Shown in pieces: positions 6,850-33,620 of a stretch of 39,875 nt of DNA. Below the pieces are notes generated by a model that was not told where the DNA came from, did not search any database, and worked only from the letters and a program-made list of their open reading frames with translations. This DNA is from Nitrospira sp. CG24E. Lineage in GTDB: Bacteria; Nitrospirota; Nitrospiria; Nitrospirales; Nitrospiraceae. Both the position numbers and the translations under genes were made by a program. Position 1 is the first letter of the stretch; the number at the start of each line of letters is the position of its first letter. Where the stretch lies: positions 135,622 to 175,496 of the forward strand of contig NEWP02000027.1 of the NCBI GenBank assembly GCA_002869895.2, read 5' to 3'.

Positions 6850-7803
6850 ATGGCTCGTGAATTGAATGTCATTCAACCTCCTAGCTCCGGCAGCAGCGAT
6901 GCCTGCGTATACATGTGGGCCTGCGCGATCTGTGATGAAAACGAAACGTGCCAGAAGGACAAGGAAGGGCACAGCCGCTGGTTGGTGGCGAAACGGATGG
7001 AGCGGATTGAATACAAAGTGCTCATCATGAGTAACAAGGGTGGAGTCGGGAAAAGTACCTGTACGACGAACCTTGCCGTGAGTCTGGCGCTCAAAGGGTG
7101 GCATGTCGGAATTTGCGATATGGACATCCATGGCCCGAACATCCCAAAGATGGTGGGGGCTGAAGGGCAGAAACTCAAGATCAGCAGCTCGGGCGGGATT
7201 ATCCCGTTTCAGGCGTATAACCTGAAGATTGCATCGATGTCCTTCCTGTTGCAGAATTCTGACGATCCGATTATCTGGCGCGATGCGTACAAGTATGAGT
7301 TCATCAATCAACTCTTGGGTGGTGTCGAGTGGCAGGATCTCAACTTCTTATTTGTCGATCTGCCTCCCGGAACGGGTAACGAATCGGTCACGACCATCGA
7401 CCTGCTCGGTAATGTCAGCGGCGCGGTGATTATCACGACGCCGCAAGAAGTCGCGTTGTTGGATTCCCGCAAGTCTGTCTCGTTCTGCAAGGATAGCGAA
7501 GTCCCGATCATTGGGATTGTAGAAAATATGAGTGGGTTAGAATGTCCCCATTGTCACAGCCATATCGAAGTGTTCCGTAAAGGCGGGGGAGAAGCCTCCG
7601 CGATCGATATGGGGGTTCCCTTCCTCGGGCGCATTCCACTCGATCCCGATGTCGTGATCCAATCTGATGCCGGGGAGCCCTTTGCCATGTTTAATTCTGA
7701 CACGGCGACGGCGGAGTGCTATCACGAGATCGCCAATAAGGTCGAAGCCTTCTGCAAGAAACGGGGGGCGCTTGTAAAAATTGCATCTCCGCAGGCGCAC
7801 TGA
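6850..7803 (+). CDS. Mrp/NBP35-type iron-sulfur cluster carrier ATPase
   Basis: 317-aa P-loop ATPase of the Mrp/ApbC/NBP35 group, which holds a 4Fe-4S cluster at a dimer interface and passes it to client proteins. The deviant Walker A KGGVGKST spans 63-70. DMDIHGPNIPKM and VDLPPGTGNE are family hallmarks, and the cluster-binding C232-P-H-C235 is present. Unusually for the short bacterial Mrp form, an N-terminal Cys set precedes the P-loop (C19, C25, C28, C34 in a WACAICDENETC context), as in eukaryotic NBP35. AGAGGGAAG lies before the ATG. It sits between tatC and moeA with a 45-base and a 13-base gap, probably one operon, which suggests a role in maturing exported Fe-S/Mo enzymes. Confidence 0.9.
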   Translation: MARELNVIQPPSSGSSDACVYMWACAICDENETCQKDKEGHSRWLVAKRMERIEYKVLIMSNKGGVGKSTCTTNLAVSLALKGWHVGICDMDIHGPNIPKMVGAEGQKLKISSSGGIIPFQAYNLKIASMSFLLQNSDDPIIWRDAYKYEFINQLLGGVEWQDLNFLFVDLPPGTGNESVTTIDLLGNVSGAVIITTPQEVALLDSRKSVSFCKDSEVPIIGIVENMSGLECPHCHSHIEVFRKGGGEASAIDMGVPFLGRIPLDPDVVIQSDAGEPFAMFNSDTATAECYHEIANKVEAFCKKRGALVKIASPQAH

Positions 7804-7816
7804 TGAAGGAGCAAAT

Positions 7817-9115
7817 ATGAAGGCCTCAGACGTGACAGAGGGGCTCACGCCACTGCATGAGGCGCAGCGGATCGTATTGGAGGTCACGCCGACCTTGGGG
7901 CTGGAGAAGATCTCGCTTCTTGATGCTCTTGGCCGGGTCCTGGGCGAAGACATTGTCGCGGAACGGGATAATCCACCCTGGGACAACAGTGCGATGGATG
8001 GGTTTGCGGTTCGGTGGCACGATATCAAACAAGAGCATGCGATTCAGAAGCCGGTGACGCTCACGGTGATCGAAGATGTCGCTGCAGGCAAGATGCCGTC
8101 AAAGTCCGTCGGTCCTGGACAGGCGATTCGTATCATGACCGGAGCTCCGCTCCCACAGGGGGCTGATACGGTCTTGAAGGTCGAAGATACTGAACATACG
8201 GCGGATTCTGTTCGCGTGTTCAAGCCGGAGCAACAAGGCGCCAACATTCGGCCGAAAGGCGAAGACGCGAAGAAGGGCGAATGCATTATCGGTAAGGGAA
8301 CCAAGATTCGCTCTGGTGAAGCCGGCATGTTGGCGATCCTTGCCAAATCGTTTCTCTTTTCCTATCAACGGCCCCGGGTTGCGATCCTTTCGACGGGCGA
8401 TGAATTGGCGGATTTGGACGAACGATTCAGTGAAGAGAAAATCATCAACTCCAATAGCTATGGAATTGCGGCGGCAGTTCAGGAGGCGGGAGGCATTCCC
8501 TTGCTGCTGGGGATTGCAAGGGATACCCCGGCGGCGCTGAAGGAAAAAATCTCGCAAGGCCTGACGGCGGACATTTTGGTGCTGTCCGGTGGCGTGTCGA
8601 TGGGCGATTACGATTTCACGAAGACGGTTTTCCAGGAACTGGGCGCCGCAATGAACTTCTGGAAGTTGGCAATCAGGCCTGGGCAACCGCTTGCCTTCGG
8701 CAAGATTCAGGGGAAGCTCGCCTTCGGTTTGCCGGGGAATCCTGTGTCTTCCATGGTGACTTTCGAGCAGCTAGTGCGGCCGGCGATGCTCAAAATGAGC
8801 GGTCATCGAAGTTACGGTCGGCCGGTCGTACAGGCGATTTTCCAGGGGAGCTTTTCCAAACGGCCGGACCGGCGCCATTTCCTCCGCGGCGTACTCACCA
8901 GAGAAGATGGTGTCTTCATGGTTCGAACGACTGGTGCGCAGGGGTCTGGAATGTTGACCTCTATGGTGAAGGCCAATTGCTTGATCGATATTCCCGTGGA
9001 AGTTGAACGAGTAGACCTGGGCGATCTGGTATCGGTTCAATTGCTGAGCGGAGTCGCCTGGGCTAGCCCAACAGAGTCAACCCAAACGAGCGGGCATAGC
9101 CTGTCATGTTGTTAG
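7817..9115 (+). CDS. moeA: Molybdopterin molybdenumtransferase MoeA
   Basis: 432 aa, usual MoeA length is about 400-420. It inserts molybdate into adenylylated molybdopterin to give active molybdenum cofactor. Visible motifs: NPPWDNSAMDGFA (family PPFDNSAMDGYA), MTGAPLPQGADTVL, the MogA-like core with STGDEL, LSGGVSMGDYDF, RPGQPLAFG and GLPGNPVSSMVTFEQ. The ATG at 7817 follows GAAGGAG by 5 bases, so the longer in-frame reading that overlaps the preceding gene was not used. Nitrite oxidoreductase is the obvious molybdenum enzyme in this kind of organism (knowledge of Nitrospira, not seen in the window). Confidence 0.95.
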   Translation: MKASDVTEGLTPLHEAQRIVLEVTPTLGLEKISLLDALGRVLGEDIVAERDNPPWDNSAMDGFAVRWHDIKQEHAIQKPVTLTVIEDVAAGKMPSKSVGPGQAIRIMTGAPLPQGADTVLKVEDTEHTADSVRVFKPEQQGANIRPKGEDAKKGECIIGKGTKIRSGEAGMLAILAKSFLFSYQRPRVAILSTGDELADLDERFSEEKIINSNSYGIAAAVQEAGGIPLLLGIARDTPAALKEKISQGLTADILVLSGGVSMGDYDFTKTVFQELGAAMNFWKLAIRPGQPLAFGKIQGKLAFGLPGNPVSSMVTFEQLVRPAMLKMSGHRSYGRPVVQAIFQGSFSKRPDRRHFLRGVLTREDGVFMVRTTGAQGSGMLTSMVKANCLIDIPVEVERVDLGDLVSVQLLSGVAWASPTESTQTSGHSLSCC

Positions 9116-9212
9116 CAGAAAGGAAGTCAATGGTTATCGGTCGCTAGTGCTGGGGAGGATCACTGTCGATCTCTGTTGGCCGGTGACGATTGACCCTTGA
9201 CCAGTGTTATCC

Positions 9213-9737
9213 ATGGCTGTTCCTATTGTTTCGTTTGTCGGTCGTTCGAACAGTGGAAAGACCACGCTGATCGAGCGGGTCATCCCTATGTTGGTGCGGG
9301 CCGGCTACAAAGTAGCAACGGTGAAGCATGCCGGACATGGGTTTAATCTCGATACGGAAGGAAAAGACAGCTGGCGCCATAAACAAGCCGGAGCCAGCAG
9401 CGTTGTGGTGCTTTCAAAGGGAAGTGTCGCGATGTTTGCCGATGTGTCCGATCAGATGCGTGTCGAAGACGTGCGGGATCGGTTTCTCGATCACACCTAC
9501 GATCTGATTATCGCCGAAGGGTGGAAACACGAAAAGTATCCGAAGATCGTTATTGTCCGCGAACAGATCGGCGAAATTCCTGTTTCCACGGAAGGGCTAC
9601 TCGCGGTGGTATCAGATAAGCCGGTAGATCTATCCGTACCGCTGTTTGGGCTGGACGATGTCGTCGGCGTGGCTGCCCTGATCATGAAGCAGTTCCCCAG
9701 ATCGCCATCTCGTTTGGAACATGGGCTGGAAGTCTAA
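9213..9737 (+). CDS. mobB: Molybdopterin-guanine dinucleotide biosynthesis adaptor MobB
   Basis: 174-aa GTP-binding protein. P-loop GRSNSGKTTLIE lies near the N terminus; ATVKHAGHGFNLDTEGKDSWRHKQAGA is the MobB family region, followed by DLIIAEGWKHEKYPKI. MobB assists MobA in adding GMP to molybdopterin. The ATG at 9213 places the P-loop at the usual distance; a GTG at 9204 is also in frame. It follows moeA after a 97-base gap in which I see no gene or clear signal. The partner mobA is 23 kb downstream in this window. Confidence 0.93.
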   Translation: MAVPIVSFVGRSNSGKTTLIERVIPMLVRAGYKVATVKHAGHGFNLDTEGKDSWRHKQAGASSVVVLSKGSVAMFADVSDQMRVEDVRDRFLDHTYDLIIAEGWKHEKYPKIVIVREQIGEIPVSTEGLLAVVSDKPVDLSVPLFGLDDVVGVAALIMKQFPRSPSRLEHGLEV

Positions 9738-21209: not shown

Positions 21210-23084
21210 ATGGTCATGAAGCAGAGAGCGCACAGGGTCATCGGGTATGCAGTTCTACTAGTAGCTATTTTTTCCGCTTCAATAATTGGTTGGGGCCTGT
21301 ACAGCCAATCCTTTGCCGAGAGTAGCACCGATCTCTATTTCAAGACCCCAGGAACTCCTCAAGGTCCTTCGGTTCCTTCTCCAGAGGAGACTGTCTATTC
21401 GCGCATCGGGTCCTTCGATAGTCGATTGATCGTATGGTTCGTCACACAACTCCACACCTACTTCGGAGGGTTTGTTCTCGCGTTGCCGATTTTTTGTGTG
21501 TTGCTGGAATTTCTTGGGCTCAGAACGAAAAAGCCCGAGCTCGCGCTTCGCTACGACGGTCTCGCTCGCGATTTGGCGAAAGTGGCTCTGCTCTCCCTCT
21601 CGGTCACGGCTGTGGTTGGGAGCGTCATGCTGGGGATCTTTCTCTATTTTTACCCGAGCTTCATGCGGTACATGGGCGGGACATTCAAGACCTTCATGCC
21701 GATCTATGCGTTCGTGTTCTTCGGAGAATCGGCGCTGCTCATTACCTATTACTATAGCTGGAACCGGCTGGTTGAGCCGGCTTCGAAGTGGGCTCATGCG
21801 TCGATCGGTTTGTTGAGCAATCTCTTTGGGACAGCCTTGCTGCTCTTGGCCAACGCCTGGTCGGCCTTCATGATGGCGCCGGCTGGCGTCGATGCGCAGG
21901 GCCAGTATTTGGGAAACGGGTGGCATCTGCTCCATTCGGCCTTATGGAATCCATTGAACGTCCATCGCTTCCTGGCAAACATCATGTCCGGTGGCGCGGT
22001 GGTGATGGCCTACGCTTGTTATCGATTCTTCACCAGCAAGTCAGAGAAAGAGAGCGCCTATTTTGATTGGGTCGGGCATATCTTCTTATTTGTCACGGTG
22101 ATCGCATTGTTACCCATGCCCTTTGCCGGCTACTGGTTGATGCGGTCGGTCTACGCATTCAGCCAGAATATGGGAGTGACGATGATGGGGGGGTTGCTCA
22201 CCTGGCTCTTTGTCGTGCAGGCTATCCTGATCGGCGTCCTCTTCCTCGGAATCAATTTTTATCTTTGGCAGAGTATGGCTCGCCTTCAGGGGGGTAATCG
22301 GTATCAGCCCTATTACCAAATGCTCCTCTCGGTATTTATGGTGGCCTTGGTTATTTGGCTGCCGCCGCACACCGTGTTCATGTCGGCCAGTGAAGTGAAG
22401 GCCATGGGTGGAGCGCAACATCCCGTAGTCGGCAACTATGGAGTGATGTCGGCAAAGAATGGCGCGGTCAATATCATGATTCTCGTCACCACCATGAGTT
22501 TCCTGTACTACCGTCGCGCCAATCGAACGATGGTTGTGTCTTGGGCCAAGAAGGGGAACATGCTCATCGGTCTGTTGTTCGTTCTGGGGGCGCTCAACAT
22601 TATCTGGCTTTCCGTCTATGGGTATTATCTGCCGGCGAAGCTTCGCGTCGGGCTGTCGACGCCGCAAGCGGCAACCACGTTGACGGTTCTCGTGGTCGGA
22701 GTGATCATCAATCGTATGATGCTCAAGGGCTCGGTCCTCCATGGGCCGATCCAGTGGGGAAAGATTTCTCTGAGGGGCATGGCAGGTTTATTCGGACTGG
22801 CCGCAGCATTTACGTGGGTCATGGGCCTCATGGGTTATATCCGCTCCTCCGGGCGGTTGGCCTGGCACGTGAGTGAGTTGATGGCCGATGTTTCGCCCTG
22901 GGCCTTTACACCGGACTTTGCGTTTGCTGCCAAGATGGTCACGCTCAATATGATGGTGTTCTGGGGAGCGGTGCTCGTCCTATTCTGGATGTGTCAGCGA
23001 GATCAGTCGCCGGCGAAGGGAGCAGAGGTGGCAGTGGAGAATACGAGGGTGCTGGCGCCGCCATCCTCGTCACAAGAGGCATAA
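21210..23084 (+). CDS. Cytochrome bd-like oxidase core subunit, first paralogue
   Basis: 624 aa, about 14 membrane spans. It resembles CydA in the N-terminal H82 (TQLHTYFGGF) and the NAWSAFMMAPAG stretch, but lacks the usual GRQPW Q-loop signature. It shares H239, H242, H252 (WHLLHSALWNPLNVHR), H387 (PPHT), H404 (AQHPVVGNYGVMSAKNG) and H553 (AWHVSE) with the paralogue at 26672. Such bd-like proteins in Nitrospira genomes have been proposed as unusual terminal oxidases. The N terminus has a signal-like or membrane segment. Directly follows the unknown membrane protein; no cytochrome c genes are nearby in this half. Confidence 0.85.
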   Translation: MVMKQRAHRVIGYAVLLVAIFSASIIGWGLYSQSFAESSTDLYFKTPGTPQGPSVPSPEETVYSRIGSFDSRLIVWFVTQLHTYFGGFVLALPIFCVLLEFLGLRTKKPELALRYDGLARDLAKVALLSLSVTAVVGSVMLGIFLYFYPSFMRYMGGTFKTFMPIYAFVFFGESALLITYYYSWNRLVEPASKWAHASIGLLSNLFGTALLLLANAWSAFMMAPAGVDAQGQYLGNGWHLLHSALWNPLNVHRFLANIMSGGAVVMAYACYRFFTSKSEKESAYFDWVGHIFLFVTVIALLPMPFAGYWLMRSVYAFSQNMGVTMMGGLLTWLFVVQAILIGVLFLGINFYLWQSMARLQGGNRYQPYYQMLLSVFMVALVIWLPPHTVFMSASEVKAMGGAQHPVVGNYGVMSAKNGAVNIMILVTTMSFLYYRRANRTMVVSWAKKGNMLIGLLFVLGALNIIWLSVYGYYLPAKLRVGLSTPQAATTLTVLVVGVIINRMMLKGSVLHGPIQWGKISLRGMAGLFGLAAAFTWVMGLMGYIRSSGRLAWHVSELMADVSPWAFTPDFAFAAKMVTLNMMVFWGAVLVLFWMCQRDQSPAKGAEVAVENTRVLAPPSSSQEA

Positions 23085-24186: not shown

Positions 24187-25110
24187 ATGGAAAACAAGGG
24201 GCTGATCATCGGATCGATCATCTTTGTCTTTGGGTGCTTCTTTCTGATGATTAGTTTGCTGGTATATGAGTCGTATAAAGCGAAGCAGATCAAAGCGTTG
24301 GCTGCGTCGATCAAGACGGAAGCTCGTCCTGCGACGGCCAGCGCAGCCTCGCTGGATTACTCCATGTATAAAACGAAGATCGGCGATGAAGGCCGAGAAA
24401 TGGTGCAGGTCCCCGAAGGCCCGTTCATCATGGGCAGCAAAGACGGCGACCCGGATGAGGCGCCGGAGCGTCAAACGTATCTCAGGGCATTCTATATGGA
24501 CAAAAAAGAGGTGTCGCAAGAGGAATATGCGCGATTCGCCAAGATGACCAGGCGTCCGTTGCCCAAGATTGAAGTGTTTGAAGACGATCAATCCAAACTG
24601 CTGCGGCCTGAATTTGCGGCGATGAGCATGACCTGGGAAGAGGCCTCGGCCTATTGCAAATGGGCGGGGAAACGCCTTCCCACCGAAGCGGAATGGGAAA
24701 AAGCCGGCCGTGGCGAAGGAAAGCGTAAGTACGCGTGGGGTGATACCTTCATGAACGGCCGTGCCAATGCGAATGTGGATGGGAGTGAAGACGGGTTTCG
24801 GTATTTGGCCCCTCCCGGGTCGTTCGAGACGGGGAGAAGCCCCTACGGGATTTATGACATGACCGGAAATGTCGCCGAGTGGGTTGCCGATTCGTACGAT
24901 GAACATTACTACCAGAAGGCGTCCTACCGCGATCCGAAAGGGCCGGAGCCGGTCGATTTGAAAGTCGTGCGGGGAGGCTCATGGCGGGAGACCGAACATA
25001 ATGCCCGGCTCTCCAAGCGATTTGCCGCCAAGCACTGGAGGACGGACATTACCATCGGGTTTCGCTGTGCAAGCGATGTGGAGGGTGGCGAGAGCCCTGC
25101 GCCTTCATAA
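24187..25110 (+). CDS. Membrane-anchored FGE-fold protein, first copy
   Basis: 307 aa. One N-terminal transmembrane anchor (about 4-28), a linker, then a formylglycine-generating-enzyme-type (SUMF1) domain: MVQVPEGPFIMGS, DKKEVSQEEYARF, AYCKWAGKRLPTEAEWEKAGRG, GIYDMTGNVAEWVADS, VRGGSW, IGFRCA. The Cys pair that does catalysis in true FGE (the MCHRSYC region) is absent; the same place reads RETEHNARLSKRFAAKH. It is therefore probably a binding or accessory domain, as in several non-sulfatase relatives. No sulfatase gene is seen nearby. Confidence 0.88.
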   Translation: MENKGLIIGSIIFVFGCFFLMISLLVYESYKAKQIKALAASIKTEARPATASAASLDYSMYKTKIGDEGREMVQVPEGPFIMGSKDGDPDEAPERQTYLRAFYMDKKEVSQEEYARFAKMTRRPLPKIEVFEDDQSKLLRPEFAAMSMTWEEASAYCKWAGKRLPTEAEWEKAGRGEGKRKYAWGDTFMNGRANANVDGSEDGFRYLAPPGSFETGRSPYGIYDMTGNVAEWVADSYDEHYYQKASYRDPKGPEPVDLKVVRGGSWRETEHNARLSKRFAAKHWRTDITIGFRCASDVEGGESPAPS

Positions 25111-25115
25111 GAGCC

Positions 25116-26009
25116 ATGCTCGAAACCAAATTCAAGCTTCTCTTCCTTTTCGCTATCCTGGCGTTCGCTGCGATTCCCATCATGGGCATCTTTCGCGGCA
25201 GCATGCTGACTCCGTTCGAAAAATCTTCAGATGACTCTCCGATAGTAAGTCCATCGGGGTCGTCCGATCCCCAGTCGCAGGCGGCTCCCGAAGAGCCAAT
25301 TGTGGAGGAAATGATCACGATTCCGGCAGGACCCTTTATTCGCGGGACTGATCAAGGGGGGTTCGATGAGCTCCCGCAACGCACGCTGATACTGAATGCC
25401 TTTGCCATCGATCGGTACGAAGTGACGAACTTTCAGTACCAGCAGTTTGTGAATGTGACCGGACATCGTAAATCTGGTCCTCCCGCCCGCTATGCCAAGA
25501 ACATGAGCAAAATGCAGGGTATCAATCAGCCGGTGGTCTACGTCTCCTGGGAGGATGCGGAGGCCTATTGCAATTGGAAGGGGAAGCGGCTACCGACTGA
25601 AGCAGAGTGGGAGAAGGCCATGCGAGGATCGGATGGCCGTCTGTGGCCCTGGGGTAATGTGGAGAACCCGAATGGGGCAAATTGGGCCAGGGTACAGGAT
25701 GGGTATGAGGTCTCCGCTTCTGTCGGCGCAGTTCAGACCGATAAGAGCCCCTATGGCGTTATGGATGGAGCAGGAAATGTCATGGAATGGGTGGCTGACT
25801 GGTACGCGGAACGCTACTTTGAAGAAGCGCCGGAGCAGAACAGTCCCGGCCCGGAGCATGGCGTATTCCGGGTGCTTCGTGGGGGAGGCTATGCGACCAC
25901 CGGGGCCGATATCCGCATCACCAGCCGGAGTAAAATGGTTCAAGATTTTCGCGATGAAACGATCGGATTTCGCTGCGCGGCCTCTAGCGAAAAATTAGAA
26001 AATCGCTGA
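25116..26009 (+). CDS. Membrane-anchored FGE-fold protein, second copy
   Basis: 297 aa, same build as the preceding gene: N-terminal anchor (about 6-26), Ser/Pro-rich linker, then FGE-type domain (ITIPAGPFIRGTDQG, DRYEVTNFQYQQF, AYCNWKGKRLPTEAEWEKA, MEWVADWYAERY, LRGGGYAT, IGFRCAA). It also lacks the catalytic Cys pair (GADIRITSRSKMVQDFRDE there). Starts 5 bases after the first copy's stop; clear tandem duplication with divergence. It ends the rightward operon before a convergent small gene. Confidence 0.88.
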   Translation: MLETKFKLLFLFAILAFAAIPIMGIFRGSMLTPFEKSSDDSPIVSPSGSSDPQSQAAPEEPIVEEMITIPAGPFIRGTDQGGFDELPQRTLILNAFAIDRYEVTNFQYQQFVNVTGHRKSGPPARYAKNMSKMQGINQPVVYVSWEDAEAYCNWKGKRLPTEAEWEKAMRGSDGRLWPWGNVENPNGANWARVQDGYEVSASVGAVQTDKSPYGVMDGAGNVMEWVADWYAERYFEEAPEQNSPGPEHGVFRVLRGGGYATTGADIRITSRSKMVQDFRDETIGFRCAASSEKLENR

Positions 26010-26029
26010 AGGGGTAAGCGGGGTAAAAT

Positions 26030-26134
26030 TTACAGGAAATCAAAGTAGTAGAGAATGAGAAACACGGCCAAAATGATATTGACAACCATGCCGACCAAAA
26101 CTATAATGTCGAACACTTTTGAATGTCTTTTCAT
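26030..26134 (-). CDS. 34-aa single-span membrane peptide
   Basis: The frame starts MKRHSKVFDIIVLV and ends LYYFDFL, one hydrophobic helix (about residues 8-29) with a basic cytoplasmic start. GGGGAAA lies 6 bases before the ATG on the minus strand, and a good promoter (26173-26201) lies just upstream. It is divergent from the bd-like oxidase operon and convergent with the FGE gene. Size and build resemble the tiny subunits (CydX, CcoS type) of oxidases, but no sequence match is claimed. Confidence 0.6.
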   Translation of the reverse strand: MKRHSKVFDIIVLVGMVVNIILAVFLILYYFDFL

Positions 26135-26172
26135 TGAATTTCCCCTGATTTTTCGTGCGTGACAAGGAATTT

Positions 26173-26201
26173 TGAATAACATACGGGTATCTGAGAGTCA
26201 A
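26173..26201 (-). promoter_or_regulatory. Sigma70-type promoter on the minus strand
   Basis: Read on the minus strand: TTGACT (26201-26196), 17-base spacer, TATTCA (26178-26173). The start point near 26166 gives a leader of about 32 bases to the 34-aa frame. Confidence 0.5.
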
Positions 26202-26261
26202 GAATTTCACCGGGCTGATTGATCAAATATTCGATAGGATCCGGAGGAGAAGGAGACAGAG

Positions 26262-26402
26262 ATGGGCGACGCATCAGCGACACCAGCGGGACCGCCGGAT
26301 AGCGAGATGAAAATTGCGATCGGCAAAATGATTTTCTATGTGACCTGCGCAGTCGGTCTGTGGTTCTTTTATTGGTTTGCCGGAATTCAGTGTCCCTGTT
26401 AA
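26262..26402 (+). CDS. 46-aa single-span membrane protein
   Basis: Starts MGDASATPAGPPDSEMK, then one hydrophobic helix (about 23-41, KMIFYVTCAVGLWFFYWF) and a terminal CPC. AAGGAG at 26250-26255 gives a clear start. The C-terminal Cys-x-Cys just outside the helix is notable for a possible metal site. First of two tiny genes before the second bd-like oxidase. Confidence 0.75.
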   Translation: MGDASATPAGPPDSEMKIAIGKMIFYVTCAVGLWFFYWFAGIQCPC

Positions 26403-26461
26403 GCAGGTTGACGTAGCAGTGGGATTTCTTGAACGTTACTAAGGGTCGGGGAGAGGATGCT

Positions 26462-26584
26462 ATGGGGAGCACAATCGTTTACGGGGCAATATCGTTGGTC
26501 ATCTGTGTTGCATATTTTCTGGCAGTCGACCACTTCTTGATGGATTCTCAGGGGCTCGACTTCTGGTATTTATTCCGGAAGTAG
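26462..26584 (+). CDS. 40-aa single-span membrane protein
   Basis: Starts MGSTIVYGAISLVICVAY, helix to about residue 20, then DHFLMDSQGLDFWYLFRK. GAGAGGA precedes the ATG. It lies between the 46-aa gene and the bd-like oxidase in the same direction, so it is likely a small oxidase subunit or assembly peptide. Confidence 0.7.
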   Translation: MGSTIVYGAISLVICVAYFLAVDHFLMDSQGLDFWYLFRK

Positions 26585-26671
26585 ATCGAGGGAGAGTCGT
26601 CGTCTGCTTCAATTGAGCTTGTGGAGAAAAATGGCATGAGTTTTTTTCAGAATGCATCAAGGAGGTATCTC

Positions 26672-28585
26672 ATGGGACGTGTAGCCGGGAAGAAGTTACT
26701 CTCAATCATGGCGCTTGTCGCGATGGTTGGCCTTCTCCTGCTCCCCATCGCCGTATCGCTTCCCTCACTGGCTATTGGCGCAGATGCTCCTGATGCGGTG
26801 AAACAGGAAGGGGAGCAGAAGTACGAGAAGGGGCGCGATGTCTATTACAAGACCGAGGGACTGGCAATCGGCGCTCCTGCGCCGAAGACCGTCGACGGGC
26901 CTAAGGACTATCCGCGCTACAACTTTGAGAGCCGTGTCCTGCTCTGGTTTGCGAACCAGCAGCACCTCTATTATGGAAGCTTCGTGCTTGCGGTTCCAAT
27001 CTTTTGCATGGTCATCGAGTTCATGGGCGTCGTCACGAAGGATAAGGCAATGGCGAAGCGGTATGACCAGCTCGCCTATGACTTTATCAAGATCAGCCTG
27101 ACGGCCTATTCACTGACTGCGATTTTAGGCGGTATTCTGATCTTCACCTTCCTCACACTCTATCCCGCATTCTTCGGCTATTTATCCAGTATTTTCCGTC
27201 CGGTCATGCATATCTATGCGCTGATGTTCGTGGCGGAGAGCGGCACCCTCTACATCTACTATTATGGTTGGGACAAGATGAGGGATGGGTTCCTGAAGTG
27301 GATTCATCTGAGCATGTCCGTGATCTTAAACGTAATCGGCACGTTGCTCATGTTCCTGGCGAATTCCTGGATTGGCTTCATGATGTCACCCGCCGGCGTA
27401 GACGAGCAGGGCCGGTTCTTGGGGAACATTTGGCACGTCATCCATACAGCCCTCTGGAATCCACTCAACGTGCACCGGATTTTGGGCAATATGGCGTTCG
27501 GCGGCGGTGTCGTGGCGGCTTACGCGGCGTACAAATTCTTGGCTTCCAAGACCGATGAAGATCGTGCGCACTATGACTGGATGGGTTATATCGCCATGGC
27601 GCTTGGCGTGGCATTCCTCATTCCTCTGCCCTTTGCAGGGTACTGGCTGATGCGGGAAGTCTATGCCTACCGTCAGCAGATGGGGATCACGCTCATGGGC
27701 GGCCTGTTGGCCTGGCTCTTTATCATTCAAGCCACCATGATCGGTATTTTGTTCTTGAGCACGAATTACTATCTCTGGCAAGCCCTTGGCCGTATGCGCG
27801 GCGCTGAGAAATATCAGCGCTACATCAAGTATCTTGTATTCATCCTCTGTTGCGGCTACCTGGTCTTCATTACCCCCCACACCATCGTGATGACCCCGGC
27901 CGAATTGAAGGCCATGGGCGGTCAACAGCATCCGGTGCTGGGAAACTATGGAGTCATGTCGGCCAAAAATGGGGGTATCAACGTCATCATTACCACCACT
28001 ATTTTGAGTTTCGTCTGGTACATGCGAGGCAATAAAGTCTCCACTGTATCCTGGTCAAAGTTCGGTAATATTTTCATGGGGGTCTTCTTTGCCTGCGCCT
28101 ATGTGAACATTATCTGGCTGGCCATTTACGGGTACTATATTCCGGCAAACGTGCGAGTCGGTCTTTCTGTGCCGCAAGTTGCGACAACCCTGTCCTGTCT
28201 CTTCTTTATGTTCCCGCTTAACAGCGCCATGATGAAGGGCGCCAAACAGATGGGGGCCATCGAATGGGGCAAGATCTCCGTTCGTTCGCAATATGCCTTG
28301 ATCATGCTTGCAACCGCCTTTACCTGGATGATGGGGCTAATGGGATACATACGTTCTTCGGTTCGGTTGTTCTGGCATGTGAATGAAATCATGCGCGACA
28401 ACTCGCCCTGGGCCTATACACATACGGTGGGTTTTGCAGCGAACATGATTTCCTTCAATGTATTGTTCTTCTGGGTGAGTATTTTATTCGTCTTCTGGCT
28501 GGGAAGCCTTGGGATGAAGAAGGCTCCTGTTCCAGCGAAGGCAGGGGTTCCGGGCGGTGCACCGCAACCGGCTGCGGGCCACTAA
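26672..28585 (+). CDS. Cytochrome bd-like oxidase core subunit, second paralogue
   Basis: 637 aa, about 14 spans after an N-terminal signal-like segment (LLSIMALVAMVGLLLLPIAVS). AAGGAGG six bases before ATG 26672 decides the start over the upstream GTG and ATG. Conserved with the paralogue at 21210: H98 (NQQHLYYGSF), H255, H258, H268 (WHVIHTALWNPLNVHR), H403 (TPHT), H420 (QQHPVLGNYGVMSAKNG), H569 (FWHVNE). Histidines in the membrane core beyond those of canonical CydA could bind extra haem or copper. In Nitrospira defluvii a bd-like protein of this sort was put forward as the terminal oxidase (from memory). Here it heads a run of three cytochrome c genes, which supports electron input from cytochromes. 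Confidence 0.87.
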   Translation: MGRVAGKKLLSIMALVAMVGLLLLPIAVSLPSLAIGADAPDAVKQEGEQKYEKGRDVYYKTEGLAIGAPAPKTVDGPKDYPRYNFESRVLLWFANQQHLYYGSFVLAVPIFCMVIEFMGVVTKDKAMAKRYDQLAYDFIKISLTAYSLTAILGGILIFTFLTLYPAFFGYLSSIFRPVMHIYALMFVAESGTLYIYYYGWDKMRDGFLKWIHLSMSVILNVIGTLLMFLANSWIGFMMSPAGVDEQGRFLGNIWHVIHTALWNPLNVHRILGNMAFGGGVVAAYAAYKFLASKTDEDRAHYDWMGYIAMALGVAFLIPLPFAGYWLMREVYAYRQQMGITLMGGLLAWLFIIQATMIGILFLSTNYYLWQALGRMRGAEKYQRYIKYLVFILCCGYLVFITPHTIVMTPAELKAMGGQQHPVLGNYGVMSAKNGGINVIITTTILSFVWYMRGNKVSTVSWSKFGNIFMGVFFACAYVNIIWLAIYGYYIPANVRVGLSVPQVATTLSCLFFMFPLNSAMMKGAKQMGAIEWGKISVRSQYALIMLATAFTWMMGLMGYIRSSVRLFWHVNEIMRDNSPWAYTHTVGFAANMISFNVLFFWVSILFVFWLGSLGMKKAPVPAKAGVPGGAPQPAAGH

Positions 28586-28665
28586 TCGTCTTTAGGATTT
28601 TGGCTGGGGGAGTGGAGGCATGAAGGGCGTGCCCACTACTACCCAGACCTCAGGAGGTTACAATC

Positions 28666-29979
28666 GTGAGTGAGCTGATAAAGGAAGCTCTAACAATAGG
28701 CTGGCCGTTATTTGCACTGCTTGCCGGTCTGTTCATCTACTCCATCGTGGCAGGGAAGGATGCTGCCGCAAAAAAGAGCGCGATGTTCAAGCTCTTTATC
28801 GGCACCCTTGGCGCATGTTTGTTGTTACTGGCCATTGCGCATTACAAGGGCAGCTTCTATGAAGCGAACCGGATGCTTCCGGTTTCCTTGGTCCTCATCA
28901 CATCGGCCTGTTTTATGCTGGGGATCTATTTCCCCAATCATGCAGCACTGCTGAAGATCGGTGGCTTCATGTTCCTGGTCGCTGCCGGCCTTTCAGGCTA
29001 TGGAAATTGGCTGCCGCAGGTCGAAGGTGGGTTTCCGCCCAAGGAAGAGAAGCTGCAATATGAGGCAATGACCGCCCAGCAGCTTGCCGATGAAGGGGAG
29101 AAGATTATTTTTGGCGGAATTGGAAAGAACAAAGAGCAGGGTGCGGTCGGTAAAGGACAATGTCCGCTTTGTCATGCATTCCACGCAGGGATGCTTGGAG
29201 AACGTGCGCCAAACCTACAGGGGCTTCCAACTCGAGCGGGTAAGGAACGGTTAGAAGATCCAAAGTACAGTAAGGGAAATCCGAAGGGTCGTGAATTTGA
29301 CGATAAAGAAGCATTCCCAGGCGCTGGGACTGCGGAAAATGGGCAGGAGTATATCGCTGAATCCCACGCCTGTCCGAGCTGTTACGTCGTTGTCGGTTAC
29401 GGCGTCAAGGGAACGAACGATAAAACCAGCCCGATGCCCGCGATTCACAAGCCACCGATTTCGTTGAGCCTTCCAGAGTTGGCTGCCGTCGATACCTGGC
29501 TATATTTGCGTGAAGGGGTTGATGCTCCCTCATACGATGAAATCATCAAGTCCTATGAGAAGTTTATTCCTGAGGCAGATAGGCCTAAACCGCAAGATGA
29601 CAAGCCGGCAGGCCCAGCAAGCGCTCTTCTGGCCGATGGTACTGAACCGATCGATGTGATTTTTGCCAAATCAACGTGTATCTTGTGCCATACCATTCCC
29701 GGCATCCCTGGCGCAGTCGGTAAGCAAGGTCCCGTGCTTGAAGAGGGGACCAATGCGCCAAACCGGATCAAGGATCCGGCGTACAAGGGAACTGCGCATA
29801 ACACACAAGAGTACATTATGGAGTCCATCGTATCGCCCAGCGTCTATGTCGTGAAGCCTTTTCCGGACAACTTGATGCCAAAGGAATTCGGGACGAAGCT
29901 GAGCGCAGGGGCGTTAAAAAAGATTGTCGACTATCTGTCACAAGTTAAAGCCGGTTCACCGCCGCCGAAGATTTCATAA
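28666..29979 (+). CDS. Membrane-anchored di-haem cytochrome c
   Basis: 437 aa. Four N-terminal spans (about 8-26, 40-60, 70-90, 95-115) precede a periplasmic part with two haem sites, C166-P-L-C-H170 and C338-I-L-C-H342, each followed by a Pro-rich, duplicated block (KEQGAVGKGQCPLCH versus FAKSTCILCHTIPGIPG; then EYIAES and EYIMES, SPSVYVV). The two halves are thus a domain duplication; a Cys pair C-P-S-C without His (ACPSCYVVVG) marks the first. GTG start at 28666 with AGGAGG 8 bases before it. Probably carries electrons to or from the bd-like subunit. Confidence 0.87.
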   Translation: MSELIKEALTIGWPLFALLAGLFIYSIVAGKDAAAKKSAMFKLFIGTLGACLLLLAIAHYKGSFYEANRMLPVSLVLITSACFMLGIYFPNHAALLKIGGFMFLVAAGLSGYGNWLPQVEGGFPPKEEKLQYEAMTAQQLADEGEKIIFGGIGKNKEQGAVGKGQCPLCHAFHAGMLGERAPNLQGLPTRAGKERLEDPKYSKGNPKGREFDDKEAFPGAGTAENGQEYIAESHACPSCYVVVGYGVKGTNDKTSPMPAIHKPPISLSLPELAAVDTWLYLREGVDAPSYDEIIKSYEKFIPEADRPKPQDDKPAGPASALLADGTEPIDVIFAKSTCILCHTIPGIPGAVGKQGPVLEEGTNAPNRIKDPAYKGTAHNTQEYIMESIVSPSVYVVKPFPDNLMPKEFGTKLSAGALKKIVDYLSQVKAGSPPPKIS

Positions 29980-30036
29980 TCGGCACGCGGGATCCGGTTA
30001 TCGAGTAGGGGTGCACATCAATATGGGAGCTCATCG

Positions 30037-31074
30037 ATGAAAGCTATAATGTCGCTCGGGGCACTTATAGGGGTAGCGGGATTACTCCTGCTTTCCGGAA
30101 TGATTGTCGGTATCGTTCCGTCAGATACTGTGCGCCTGATCGAAGGCTACATGCCGGTTCAAGTGATCGCGGAACTGATCCTCTTCGTGGCAGGCTTTAC
30201 CGGTATCAGCTACATGATGTCCGCCATGGGAATGACCTTCCCACGGTTTTGGCAAGGGATCAGTTGTTGGGCCTTCGTTCTCCTCTATTTGAAGTTTCGT
30301 GTCTATCCCCCGATTCCCTTCAGCGTTCGCGCGATGTACGGGACAGTCTCCCTGGTAGCTGTGTTCATGTGGGTTTCCGCCAACGAGGAAGATTGGCAGA
30401 AATTCAAACAGCCGATCATGAACGTCCTGGACGCCAAGACCGGGGGCAACCGGTTGTTGCGCTATGCGTACCTCATTATCCTGCCGATCTTGATCGGCGG
30501 TTTTTCATACAATGCCATGGTCCCAAAATCGGAAGAGCCTATCGAGTTGAGAACGGTGCATCCGGCCCCGCCAGCCAGCACGAAGGTGCATGGAAAGACC
30601 TATACGCTTCAAACATCCCAGAACCCTTACCGAGTCAATCCTGAAGGAAAGTACGATCAGGAATACAGTAACGCCAATATTGTCGAACAGGGTATGGGGC
30701 GCTTGATGAAGCCGAACGCAAACCCATGGGATAAGGACGCTCAAGGGTATCTCAAGTATGTGCGTGAGGGCGGCGAAATTTTCTATCAAAACTGCCACTT
30801 CTGTCATGGAGACAATTTGAATGGCCGCGGCCTCCATGCCTTCGCATTCAATCCTATCCCGGCAAATTTTACTGACCCAGGCACAATCGCCCAGTTACAA
30901 GAGACATTCATTTTCTGGCGTGTTTCCAAAGGAGGAATCGGCTTACCGAACGAAGGATTCCCCTGGGCCTCTGTCATGCCGCCATGGGAACAGCATTTGA
31001 CCGTGGATGAAATTTGGAAAGTCGTCATGTTTGAATATTGGCACACGGGGTATTACCCACGCACTTGGGACTGA
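30037..31074 (+). CDS. Membrane-bound mono-haem cytochrome c
   Basis: 345 aa. Five hydrophobic segments in the first 180 residues (for example LGALIGVAGLLLLSGMIVGIV, VIAELILFVAGFTGISYMM, LIILPILIGGFSYNAM) precede a periplasmic cytochrome c domain with C253-H-F-C-H257 and a likely Met ligand in SVMPPWEQHL. ATG 30037 preceded by GGAGCT. It lies 57 bases after the di-haem gene, in the same operon. Confidence 0.85.
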   Translation: MKAIMSLGALIGVAGLLLLSGMIVGIVPSDTVRLIEGYMPVQVIAELILFVAGFTGISYMMSAMGMTFPRFWQGISCWAFVLLYLKFRVYPPIPFSVRAMYGTVSLVAVFMWVSANEEDWQKFKQPIMNVLDAKTGGNRLLRYAYLIILPILIGGFSYNAMVPKSEEPIELRTVHPAPPASTKVHGKTYTLQTSQNPYRVNPEGKYDQEYSNANIVEQGMGRLMKPNANPWDKDAQGYLKYVREGGEIFYQNCHFCHGDNLNGRGLHAFAFNPIPANFTDPGTIAQLQETFIFWRVSKGGIGLPNEGFPWASVMPPWEQHLTVDEIWKVVMFEYWHTGYYPRTWD

Positions 31075-31132
31075 TCGTTCGCAAGAACTACGCAGCCAAC
31101 CTGAATTGACGAGATGAGGGAAGAGGGAAGCC

Positions 31133-32914
31133 ATGAAGAATTCGTTTAGTCTGAAGGCGGGGGTATTATCCCTAACCGCCTTTGGAGTCATCTTGCTCTC
31201 CGGAAACGCCGGAGGTTTGGCCTTTGCCGCAGATTCACTTCCTGCCGGCTTTAAGGCTGGAGCGCTTGCACCGGAACCGTCTGCAGACATGATCGAAGCA
31301 GGAAAACGGGTCTACTTCACCAAGTGTGTCTGGTGTCACGGTGTAGATGGCGCCGGCGATGGCCCAGGCGCCGATCGTCTCTGGCCCCGTCCCCGCAATT
31401 TCAATCAGGGGACGTTCAAGATTCGTCATACGGCCAGCGGAGAGTTGCCCCTGTTCGACGCCAAGAAACCGGTTGAGGGCCAGAACGATCTGTTTGCGAC
31501 TGTGACCCACGGGTTGCCAGGCTCTGCCATGCCGCCATGGGAAGGTATTCTGACAGAGGAGCAGCGGCTTCAAGTCTTGTCGTTTGTGACGACGCAGCTT
31601 GTCAAAGATCGAAAATTTACCGACACGAAGTCAGAGAGCCAGACGGTGTTGCAGTTGGCCGAGTTGGCGCCGATTGCCGCGTCTGAAGAGAGTTTGAAAA
31701 AAGGGGCCGAGCTGATTGTCGAGAAGAAGTGTATTGAATGTCATGGGGTCGAAGGCCGTGGTGACGGCAATGCGTTCAATCTGAAGGATGACTGGGGTTT
31801 TTCAATACAACCGGCCAATTGGCACAAGTGTTGGAACTTTAGAGGCAGTCGGCAGGATCCCTATAATGTGAAGAATATCTTCCGGACATTTTCCACCGGG
31901 GTCAATGGTACTCCGATGCCATCATTCGCCGACAACACGACAGTCGAAGAGCGATGGCACATTGCAAACTTTGTGAACTCCCTCTGTGAACGGGATGGAG
32001 AGGGGAAGCCTCTCCCAATCGATCCGCAGGCTGACAAACCTAAAATCAACTTTGTGGTGCCCTCAGGGAAGGTTGAAGGAGAGATTTCAGCTGATCCGGA
32101 GAATGAATTGTGGACAAAGAGGGCCAGGCGGTATATTGCAATGGGTGGTCAGATCACTCACAAGCCCAGAAACTTCGTGAACCGGATCGACGATCTCTGG
32201 GTAAAGTCGCTTTACAATGAAACGCATGTTGTGTTCATGTTCCAGTGGGATGATCGTACGAAGAGTGTAGCCGAAGGAAAGTTGCCTTGGGCTCCGACCT
32301 CAGTCAACGTCGAAGTCAAGGAACAGGATCCAAAGACCGGCGAAGAGGGTTCTATTGCCGCGCATCAGAATAATTACACGGTGTATAACGATGCAGTGGC
32401 CATGGAGACTGCTATAAAGTGGAAAGAGCTTCCCGCGCCGATTAAGCCGCGCTATCTCTTCGGCAGCAATGAACAGTTCCCGATGGACATTGTGAAGTGG
32501 GAGGCTGATGGTTCGTTGCGCGCCTTCAAAGGAACCGGATGGGATAAAGACTTTGAACAACGCTTCGACTACGAAGAGAACATCAAGTTACTCTTCTCGG
32601 AATGGAAAAATGGCCGATGGACAGTGATCATTCAGCGTCCGTTGGGCGATAAGAAGGAACAGGATTACGACTCGGATACGTTCTTTGAAATGGGACAATA
32701 CATTCCCACCGTGTTCTTTGCCTGGGATGGGCACAATGGAGATGCAGGGAGAAAGATGGCCGTCTCGGCTTTCTACTACACCTTCTTGGAGCCGCCGACC
32801 CCGCAAGAGGCCTATATTTATCCGGTAGCCATTGCGGCCGGTGTCGTCCTTCTGGAAGGTTGGATTCTGACCAGACGATCGAACAAGCGGAAGGCAAAGG
32901 CCCTTTCTCGCTAG
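31133..32914 (+). CDS. Multi-domain cytochrome c with NXR gamma-like haem b domain
   Basis: 593 aa. Signal peptide (residues 1-33), cytochrome c domain 1 with C65-V-W-C-H69 and Met in SAMPPWEG, cytochrome c domain 2 with C200-I-E-C-H204 and Met in TPMPSF, then a domain of about residues 310-555 resembling the ethylbenzene dehydrogenase/DMSO-reductase-type gamma subunit (EB_dh; WVKSLYNETHVVFMFQWDD, FGSNEQFPMDI, WTVIIQRPL). That family holds a haem b; in Nitrospira it is known as the NXR gamma subunit. A C-terminal anchor (YIYPVAIAAGVVLLEGWIL) ends the protein. Last gene of the cytochrome block; a strong terminator follows. Confidence 0.87.
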   Translation: MKNSFSLKAGVLSLTAFGVILLSGNAGGLAFAADSLPAGFKAGALAPEPSADMIEAGKRVYFTKCVWCHGVDGAGDGPGADRLWPRPRNFNQGTFKIRHTASGELPLFDAKKPVEGQNDLFATVTHGLPGSAMPPWEGILTEEQRLQVLSFVTTQLVKDRKFTDTKSESQTVLQLAELAPIAASEESLKKGAELIVEKKCIECHGVEGRGDGNAFNLKDDWGFSIQPANWHKCWNFRGSRQDPYNVKNIFRTFSTGVNGTPMPSFADNTTVEERWHIANFVNSLCERDGEGKPLPIDPQADKPKINFVVPSGKVEGEISADPENELWTKRARRYIAMGGQITHKPRNFVNRIDDLWVKSLYNETHVVFMFQWDDRTKSVAEGKLPWAPTSVNVEVKEQDPKTGEEGSIAAHQNNYTVYNDAVAMETAIKWKELPAPIKPRYLFGSNEQFPMDIVKWEADGSLRAFKGTGWDKDFEQRFDYEENIKLLFSEWKNGRWTVIIQRPLGDKKEQDYDSDTFFEMGQYIPTVFFAWDGHNGDAGRKMAVSAFYYTFLEPPTPQEAYIYPVAIAAGVVLLEGWILTRRSNKRKAKALSR

Positions 32915-32940
32915 CCTCAATAGAGAGATCTGAAGTATGA

Positions 32941-32975
32941 AGAGGGGGTGGGGTAACCCACCCCCTCTTTCTTTT
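32941..32975 (+). terminator. Strong rho-independent terminator ending the oxidase/cytochrome operon
   Basis: A perfect 12-bp stem (32941-32952 with 32957-32968) with a GTAA tetraloop and a TTTCTTTT tail starts 27 bases after the last cytochrome stop. Confidence 0.95.
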
Positions 32976-32996
32976 AGTCGCCATTGTGAGGGTCTT

Positions 32997-33620
32997 ATGG
33001 AGACCGATGTGACCGGTGTTCTTCTTGCGGGAGGCAAAAGCCGCAGGATGGGCGAAGACAAGCGCTACCTTCTCGTGGGAGAGCAGACACTTCTCGAACG
33101 CGGTTTGGCGGTGCTCCGCTCAATCTTTCAGGAAGTACTTGTCGTGATTGCACAGGATAGCCCTTCGCTCGATATGGTGAATGTCCGAGTCGTGCGAGAT
33201 CTGCTGCCTGACTGCGGGAGTCTCGGAGGGGTCTACACAGGACTGAAGCAGGCGACCAATCCCTACATATTCGTGGCGGCATGCGACATGCCGTTTCTCG
33301 ACCCTGCGGTCATTGCCCAGTTCACAAGTCGAAGAGCCACCGTCGATATTGTGATGGCAAAACTTGCGGAACGTATGCATCCGATGCATGCGCTGTATGG
33401 AAAGGGATGCCTGACGGCTATGGAGCAGATGATTGCAGCAGGACGGCTGAAGATCCAAGATTTGGCGTTGAATCCGTCCCTCAGGGTTCAACAGATTACG
33501 GAAGATGAGTTGCGCTCTACCGATCCTTCCTATTGTTCTTTTCACAACGTCAATACACCGGCGGATCTTGAGGCGGCCTATTCGCTGTTGGCTCAGAAGC
33601 CTCCCTCACAAACACCGTAG
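32997..33620 (+). CDS. mobA: Molybdenum cofactor guanylyltransferase MobA
   Basis: 207 aa, usual length. LLAGGKSRRMGEDK is the nucleotide-binding motif, ACDMPFLDP the metal-binding loop, and SFHNVNTPADLE the C-terminal family signature. It transfers GMP from GTP to molybdopterin to form Mo-MGD, as used by DMSO-reductase-type enzymes such as nitrite oxidoreductase. ATG 32997 chosen; the longer frame would begin inside the preceding terminator. It is the partner of mobB at 9213. Confidence 0.95.
   Translation: METDVTGVLLAGGKSRRMGEDKRYLLVGEQTLLERGLAVLRSIFQEVLVVIAQDSPSLDMVNVRVVRDLLPDCGSLGGVYTGLKQATNPYIFVAACDMPFLDPAVIAQFTSRRATVDIVMAKLAERMHPMHALYGKGCLTAMEQMIAAGRLKIQDLALNPSLRVQQITEDELRSTDPSYCSFHNVNTPADLEAAYSLLAQKPPSQTP

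Follow-up and report, generated by a model that had tools for sequence, protein, structure and literature searches.

A 39,875-nt stretch of DNA from Nitrospira sp. CG24E (contig NEWP02000027.1; G000:C20:135622-175496 in our handles for genomes and contigs), hereafter the window, carries an operon built around bd-like_3, a protein of the cytochrome bd family, and three tiny genes that we call s34, s46 and s40. Every sampled member of the Nitrospirales keeps the module together, with the gene order s46-s40-bd-diheme-monoheme-altNxrC, and a consensus promoter pointing at the operon lies antisense within s34. From open reading frames, the sequence itself and a hydropathy check, the interval 26030-32970 holds six co-directional genes on the forward (+) strand, separated by 57-87 nt and closed by one strong intrinsic terminator (32939..32970, +; 14-bp stem), and one divergent gene encoding 34 amino acids (aa). 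A preliminary description of this DNA had listed these genes with lengths for the tiny and bd-like ones, CxxCH counts (2, 1 and 2), common direction, short gaps, single terminator and divergent 34-aa frame, and we found every one of these in place.

The large genes are already known. The cluster described in N. moscoviensis consists of bd-like_3, alt_NxrC_2 and two cytochromes c, and bd-like_4 lies close by (Mundinger 2019, PMC6606698). Luecker 2013 (PMC3578206) reported these genes from both Nitrospina and Kuenenia, noted that the quinol site is missing and called the function enigmatic. The window carries this set of large genes, arranged likewise as bd-like, diheme c, monoheme c and alt-NxrC, and so belongs to this bd-like_3/alt_NxrC_2 cluster type. 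The accessible parts of both accounts make no mention of the micro-genes, of the promoter in s34 or of the module being kept in lineages lacking nitrite oxidoreductase (NXR); these three features, together with a fusion in Scalindua, are new here. We found no report in the literature that the bd-like_3 complex has been isolated. The cluster bears on the way in which high-potential electrons enter the membrane in nitrite oxidisers and anammox bacteria. Our preferred reading, which we hold tentatively and at not quite an even chance, is that the module encodes a membrane redox complex, linked to periplasmic cytochrome c, whose non-canonical bd-family core reduces quinone by reverse electron transport, a role suggested previously for this cluster (PMC6606698, PMC3578206).

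Three micro-genes and a predicted promoter within s34

Each micro-protein has one hydrophobic span by hydropathy. The s46 product (26262..26402, +; 46 aa) ends in QCPC, and charge bias places this tail in the periplasm, weakly for the window copy and more clearly for its relatives. The s40 product (26462..26584, +; 40 aa) carries the motif YF..xD..LM..QGLD and is predicted from charge to lie N-out/C-in, and that of s34 (26030..26134, -; MKRHSKVFDIIVLVGMVVNIILAVFLILYYFDFL) to lie N-in/C-out. All three genes were present, at the same position, in 29/29 relatives whose contig covers the spot (one further locus ends at a contig edge, and locus L034 has s40 only as a short ATG-initiated form). Pooled ratios of nonsynonymous to synonymous change (pN/pS) were 0.24 for s46, 0.24 for s40 and 0.23 for s34, and a ribosome-binding site precedes s34 in many loci.

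Hidden Markov models (HMMs) of the micro-genes were run over 148 Nitrospirota genomes. Each gene was found adjoining bd-like_3 in 36/36 Nitrospirales whose context is intact (G127, which would be the 37th, has the locus cut by a contig end), and beyond this order the micro-genes were confined to genomes with a bd-like relative, with none in the 92 genomes that lack a bd-like match. An additional, solitary s46-like gene lies away from any bd-like gene in G173 (L077:6677-6922, G173:C3). The synteny of the small frames with the bd-like gene, on which the preliminary description had staked their role, is thus borne out, and conservation so far beyond chance indicates that all three are real genes. 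In G047, G061 and G070, which represent other classes of the phylum, the micro-genes lie 5' of bd and s34 points the same way as the rest, and G089 has s34 after alt-NxrC; s34 therefore belongs to the module even though it is divergent in Nitrospirales.

Synteny and co-inheritance suggest that the micro-proteins are subunits of the complex. Searches of Pfam, NCBIfam, PHROGs and PDB returned nothing significant: s46 and s40 had no Pfam or NCBIfam match, s34 had insignificant ones only, and no similarity to CydX was seen. The best PDB match of s34, to 6f0k_A ('Cytochrome c family protein', E 0.046), was set aside as transmembrane (TM) similarity only. In several outgroups the CPC end of s46 is swapped for histidine-containing tails (SSHSYGGH, HGVAPHHGG, VVHH), which suggests that the tail, whether CPC or His, may bind metal or heme. 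The micro-genes thus offer clade-wide markers and are probably missing subunits for purification or structure work.

The promoter, TTGACA-N17-TATAAT (26079..26107, +), matches the sigma-70 consensus at 12/12 positions. It is intact in all 29 loci, which were picked without regard to it, and invariant in 58/58 Nitrospirales loci representing 45 distinct s34 sequences (the 29 plus every further Nitrospirales locus read, some being the same genome fetched twice). Only three perfect sites of this kind occur in the 3.45-Mb genome, the other two upstream of lepA-like and rpmH-like genes. Such conservation suggests that the site acts as the promoter of the operon, and a strong conserved promoter is consistent with the published placing of the cluster among the 40 most transcribed genes of N. 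moscoviensis (PMC6606698).

With a perfect promoter overlapping its codons, and with a synonymous divergence half that of s46 and s40, s34 could be imagined to be no gene at all, merely the opposite-strand shadow of a conserved promoter. We regard this as very improbable. The only degenerate codons of s34 that never vary are 10 (ATT), 11 (ATA), 17 (GTT) and 18 (GTC), those under the -10 and -35 hexamers (across ten genes of the window, 13 of 268 Ile codons are ATA), and elsewhere in s34 the amino acids are kept despite synonymous change. The ribosome-binding site noted above likewise speaks for a gene, as does the retention of the s34 protein in outgroups at other positions and orientations without promoter overlap. 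In one of these, G153, s34 is located elsewhere and a perfect site stands upstream of the s46 homologue, showing that promoter and gene are separable; the UBA2166-like family discussed below has no perfect site. On this comparative evidence s34 is dual-coding, specifying a protein on one strand and a promoter on the other, and a promoter within a conserved antisense micro-gene clearly exemplifies dual coding maintained by selection.

The bd-like core and its cytochromes

The core, bd-like_3 (26672..28585, +), has 637 aa when read from the ATG at 26672, with other in-frame starts upstream at 26621 and 26636. PF01654 matches it with E 1.6e-19, partially (residues 87-334 against profile positions 2-241 of 418), and the protein was present in 41/41 relatives. 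One genome has two bd-like_3 copies, the second of which (L081, G090:C29:27045-28889) shares 79% identity with the query. When aligned with E. coli CydA, H19 corresponds to H98 and E107 to E189 of bd-like_3; H186 probably corresponds to H268, being offset by MAFFT and matched on manual realignment, and M393 was not alignable. The alignment shows no equivalent of E99 or E445, and K252 and E257 of the quinol-binding Q loop are not conserved, in agreement with the published analysis (PMC3578206). H212, H268 and H569 are invariant in 35 bd-like proteins and H403 and H420 nearly so. As the anammox proteins have the same set, these histidines are not diagnostic of O2 reduction. Near residue 514-557 the anammox proteins (L035-L039) also carry an insertion, adding about two TM helices, that is absent from Nitrospirota bd-like_3 and might conceivably stand in for s46 and s40. 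An AlphaFold2 model of the core from a six-sequence alignment was unusable (mean pLDDT, the predicted local confidence score, 44.8).

The E. coli CydABX oxidase shares the N-terminal core of bd subunit I and a tiny single-span subunit beside it; the module differs in having no CydB in the operon, no quinol loop and no E99/E445 equivalents, in its c cytochromes, and in micro-proteins unlike CydX. The OR-N type CydAA' of Nitrospirales and Nitrospinota, composed of bd-like_1 and bd-like_2 (PMC12342949, PMC10839748), belongs to the same superfamily branch and also lacks the quinol site; the bd-like_2 cluster has a parallel order of bd, cytochrome, cytochrome and altNxrC_1. In our tree, however, bd-like_3 forms a clade separate from bd-like_1 and bd-like_2 and does not make up an OR-N1 plus OR-N2 pair, and a comparison of two genomes (G000 and G029) revealed no conserved micro-ORFs (open reading frames) around bd-like_1 or bd-like_2.

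Downstream lie a membrane-anchored diheme cytochrome c (28666..29979, +; four predicted TM helices and two CxxCH), a membrane-anchored monoheme cytochrome c (30037..31074, +; one CxxCH) and a 593-aa protein (31133..32914, +; two CxxCH and a C-terminal TM helix). The preliminary description had spoken of three anchored cytochromes c. This holds for the first two; the third, because Pfam shows two cytochrome c domains (PF00034) plus a heme-b EB_dh domain (PF09459), is by its domain content an NXR-gamma-like (alt-NxrC) subunit corresponding to alt_NxrC_2 and not a plain cytochrome. It also has a sub-threshold match to TIGR03477. The diheme protein is homologous to Kustd1711, the Kuenenia diheme cytochrome whose heme potentials are about +350 mV (7ZS0-7ZS2, PMC11791136) and which likewise adjoins a bd-like gene, but the Nitrospira form has about four predicted N-terminal TM helices instead of one. 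In one Scalindua metagenome-assembled genome, bd-like and Kustd1711-like diheme cytochrome share a single 944-aa frame in which the diheme start codon is lost (L040:70-2904), an apparent gene fusion.

Distribution of the module and direction of electron flow

Since alt-NxrC resembles an NXR subunit, carries an EB_dh domain and adjoins nxr genes in the anammox clusters, the complex could serve as a docking platform, with alt-NxrC anchoring NXR and the bd-like protein a mere membrane scaffold, as already proposed in print (PMC6606698). For the NXR search, TIGR03479 proved too unspecific as a proxy, and the query used instead was NxrA of this genome itself (cut-off E 1e-30). At this cut-off no NxrA match was found in the class-level outgroups G153, G164 and G169 (96-99% complete) or in four genomes of an order-level family (f4) that we infer to be UBA2166; that family and other Nitrospiria orders are NXR-negative according to the literature. 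The bd-like cluster is kept in all of these, including alt-NxrC, apart from G030 (88% complete), where no bd-like_3 was seen, and all three micro-genes are kept in G153 and in the f4 genomes with upstream sequence. NxrA matches were also missing from some nitrifier genomes, probably through assembly of multi-copy nxr, so that single absences are weak evidence. Still, the module is not restricted to genomes with NxrA/NxrB, and its presence in lineages that are NXR-free both here and in the literature makes the docking platform unlikely and shows the complex to be more than an NXR accessory.

Anammox loci present the same order (cupredoxin-like, bd, diheme, monoheme, alt-NxrC) without micro-genes in the HMM search. 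This conservation in anaerobes bears on the main rival reading, that of a terminal oxidase passing cytochrome c electrons to O2 with the micro-proteins as CydX-like subunits. A bd-family core with conserved heme-ligand-like histidines, no quinol loop and many cytochromes c would suit an oxidase, as would the finding that no COX1 exceeded the cut-off in the Nitrospiria genomes tested and that bd-like_3 is the sole PF01654 protein found in G164 (96% complete). Its occurrence in anaerobic anammox bacteria and the missing E99 and E445 equivalents argue otherwise, and the oxidase candidate in print is bd-like_2 (NIDE0901), not bd-like_3 (PMC6606698); bd-like_2 is encoded on a different contig in Nitrospira sp. 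CG24E. The 'oxidase' label of the preliminary description is on these grounds set aside as unproven. Its companion claim, that cytochrome c and not quinol is the electron donor, survives in part: the close association with cytochrome c stands (conserved order, bd-diheme fusion, missing quinol site), the oxidase step is not supported as put. Because anaerobic holders exist, we consider O2 reduction the less probable of the two, with the anammox conservation tipping the balance slightly toward quinone reduction.

In the quinone-reducing complex that we favour, high-potential periplasmic electrons, from NXR in nitrifiers and from other donors elsewhere, would enter via alt-NxrC and the diheme and monoheme cytochromes, pass to the b hemes of the bd-like core and there reduce quinone for reverse electron transport. 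The micro-proteins would be structural or assembly subunits packed on the core, like CydX in E. coli cytochrome bd, and the C-terminus of s46 (CPC or His), which may bind metal or heme, would face the periplasm. Counted for this reading are the conservation as a unit, the NXR-lacking holders, the anammox clusters, the Scalindua fusion and the Kustd1711 homology, as well as the strong promoter and a core that has lost the quinol loop and E99/E445 while retaining H98, E189 and probably H268. Three points weigh against it: bd-like_3 has no recognisable quinone site; G164, with no COX1 match and bd-like_3 as its sole bd-family protein, fits an oxidase if the organism is aerobic; and in the UBA2166-like genomes, where bd-like_1 and bd-like_3 are the only bd-family members, bd-like_3 might replace the missing bd-like_2. 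A more elaborate proposal, doubtful in its entirety, is an energy-converting complex of seven proteins on a separate bd branch, with three unrecognised micro-subunits, one of them bearing a periplasmic metal- or heme-binding tail, whose subunit ratios would be set by transcriptional interference from the antisense maximal promoter in s34.

Neighbouring genes

A paralogue, bd-like_4 (21210..23084, +), about 50% identical to bd-like_3, lies upstream in the window. An Rfam search of 25900-33200 gave no match. Between bd-like_4 and the module are two FGE/SUMF1-like genes (24187-25110 and 25116-26009, +; PF03781), neighbours conserved in many relatives, whose products are possible maturation factors. 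Such genes also adjoin the module in the outgroups G153 and G164, and the UBA2166-like family has a single copy. Finally, moeA-like, mobB-like and mobA-like genes of molybdenum-cofactor type, judged by a look at the sequence, stand on either side of the respiratory cluster at 7781-9737 and 32937-33620.

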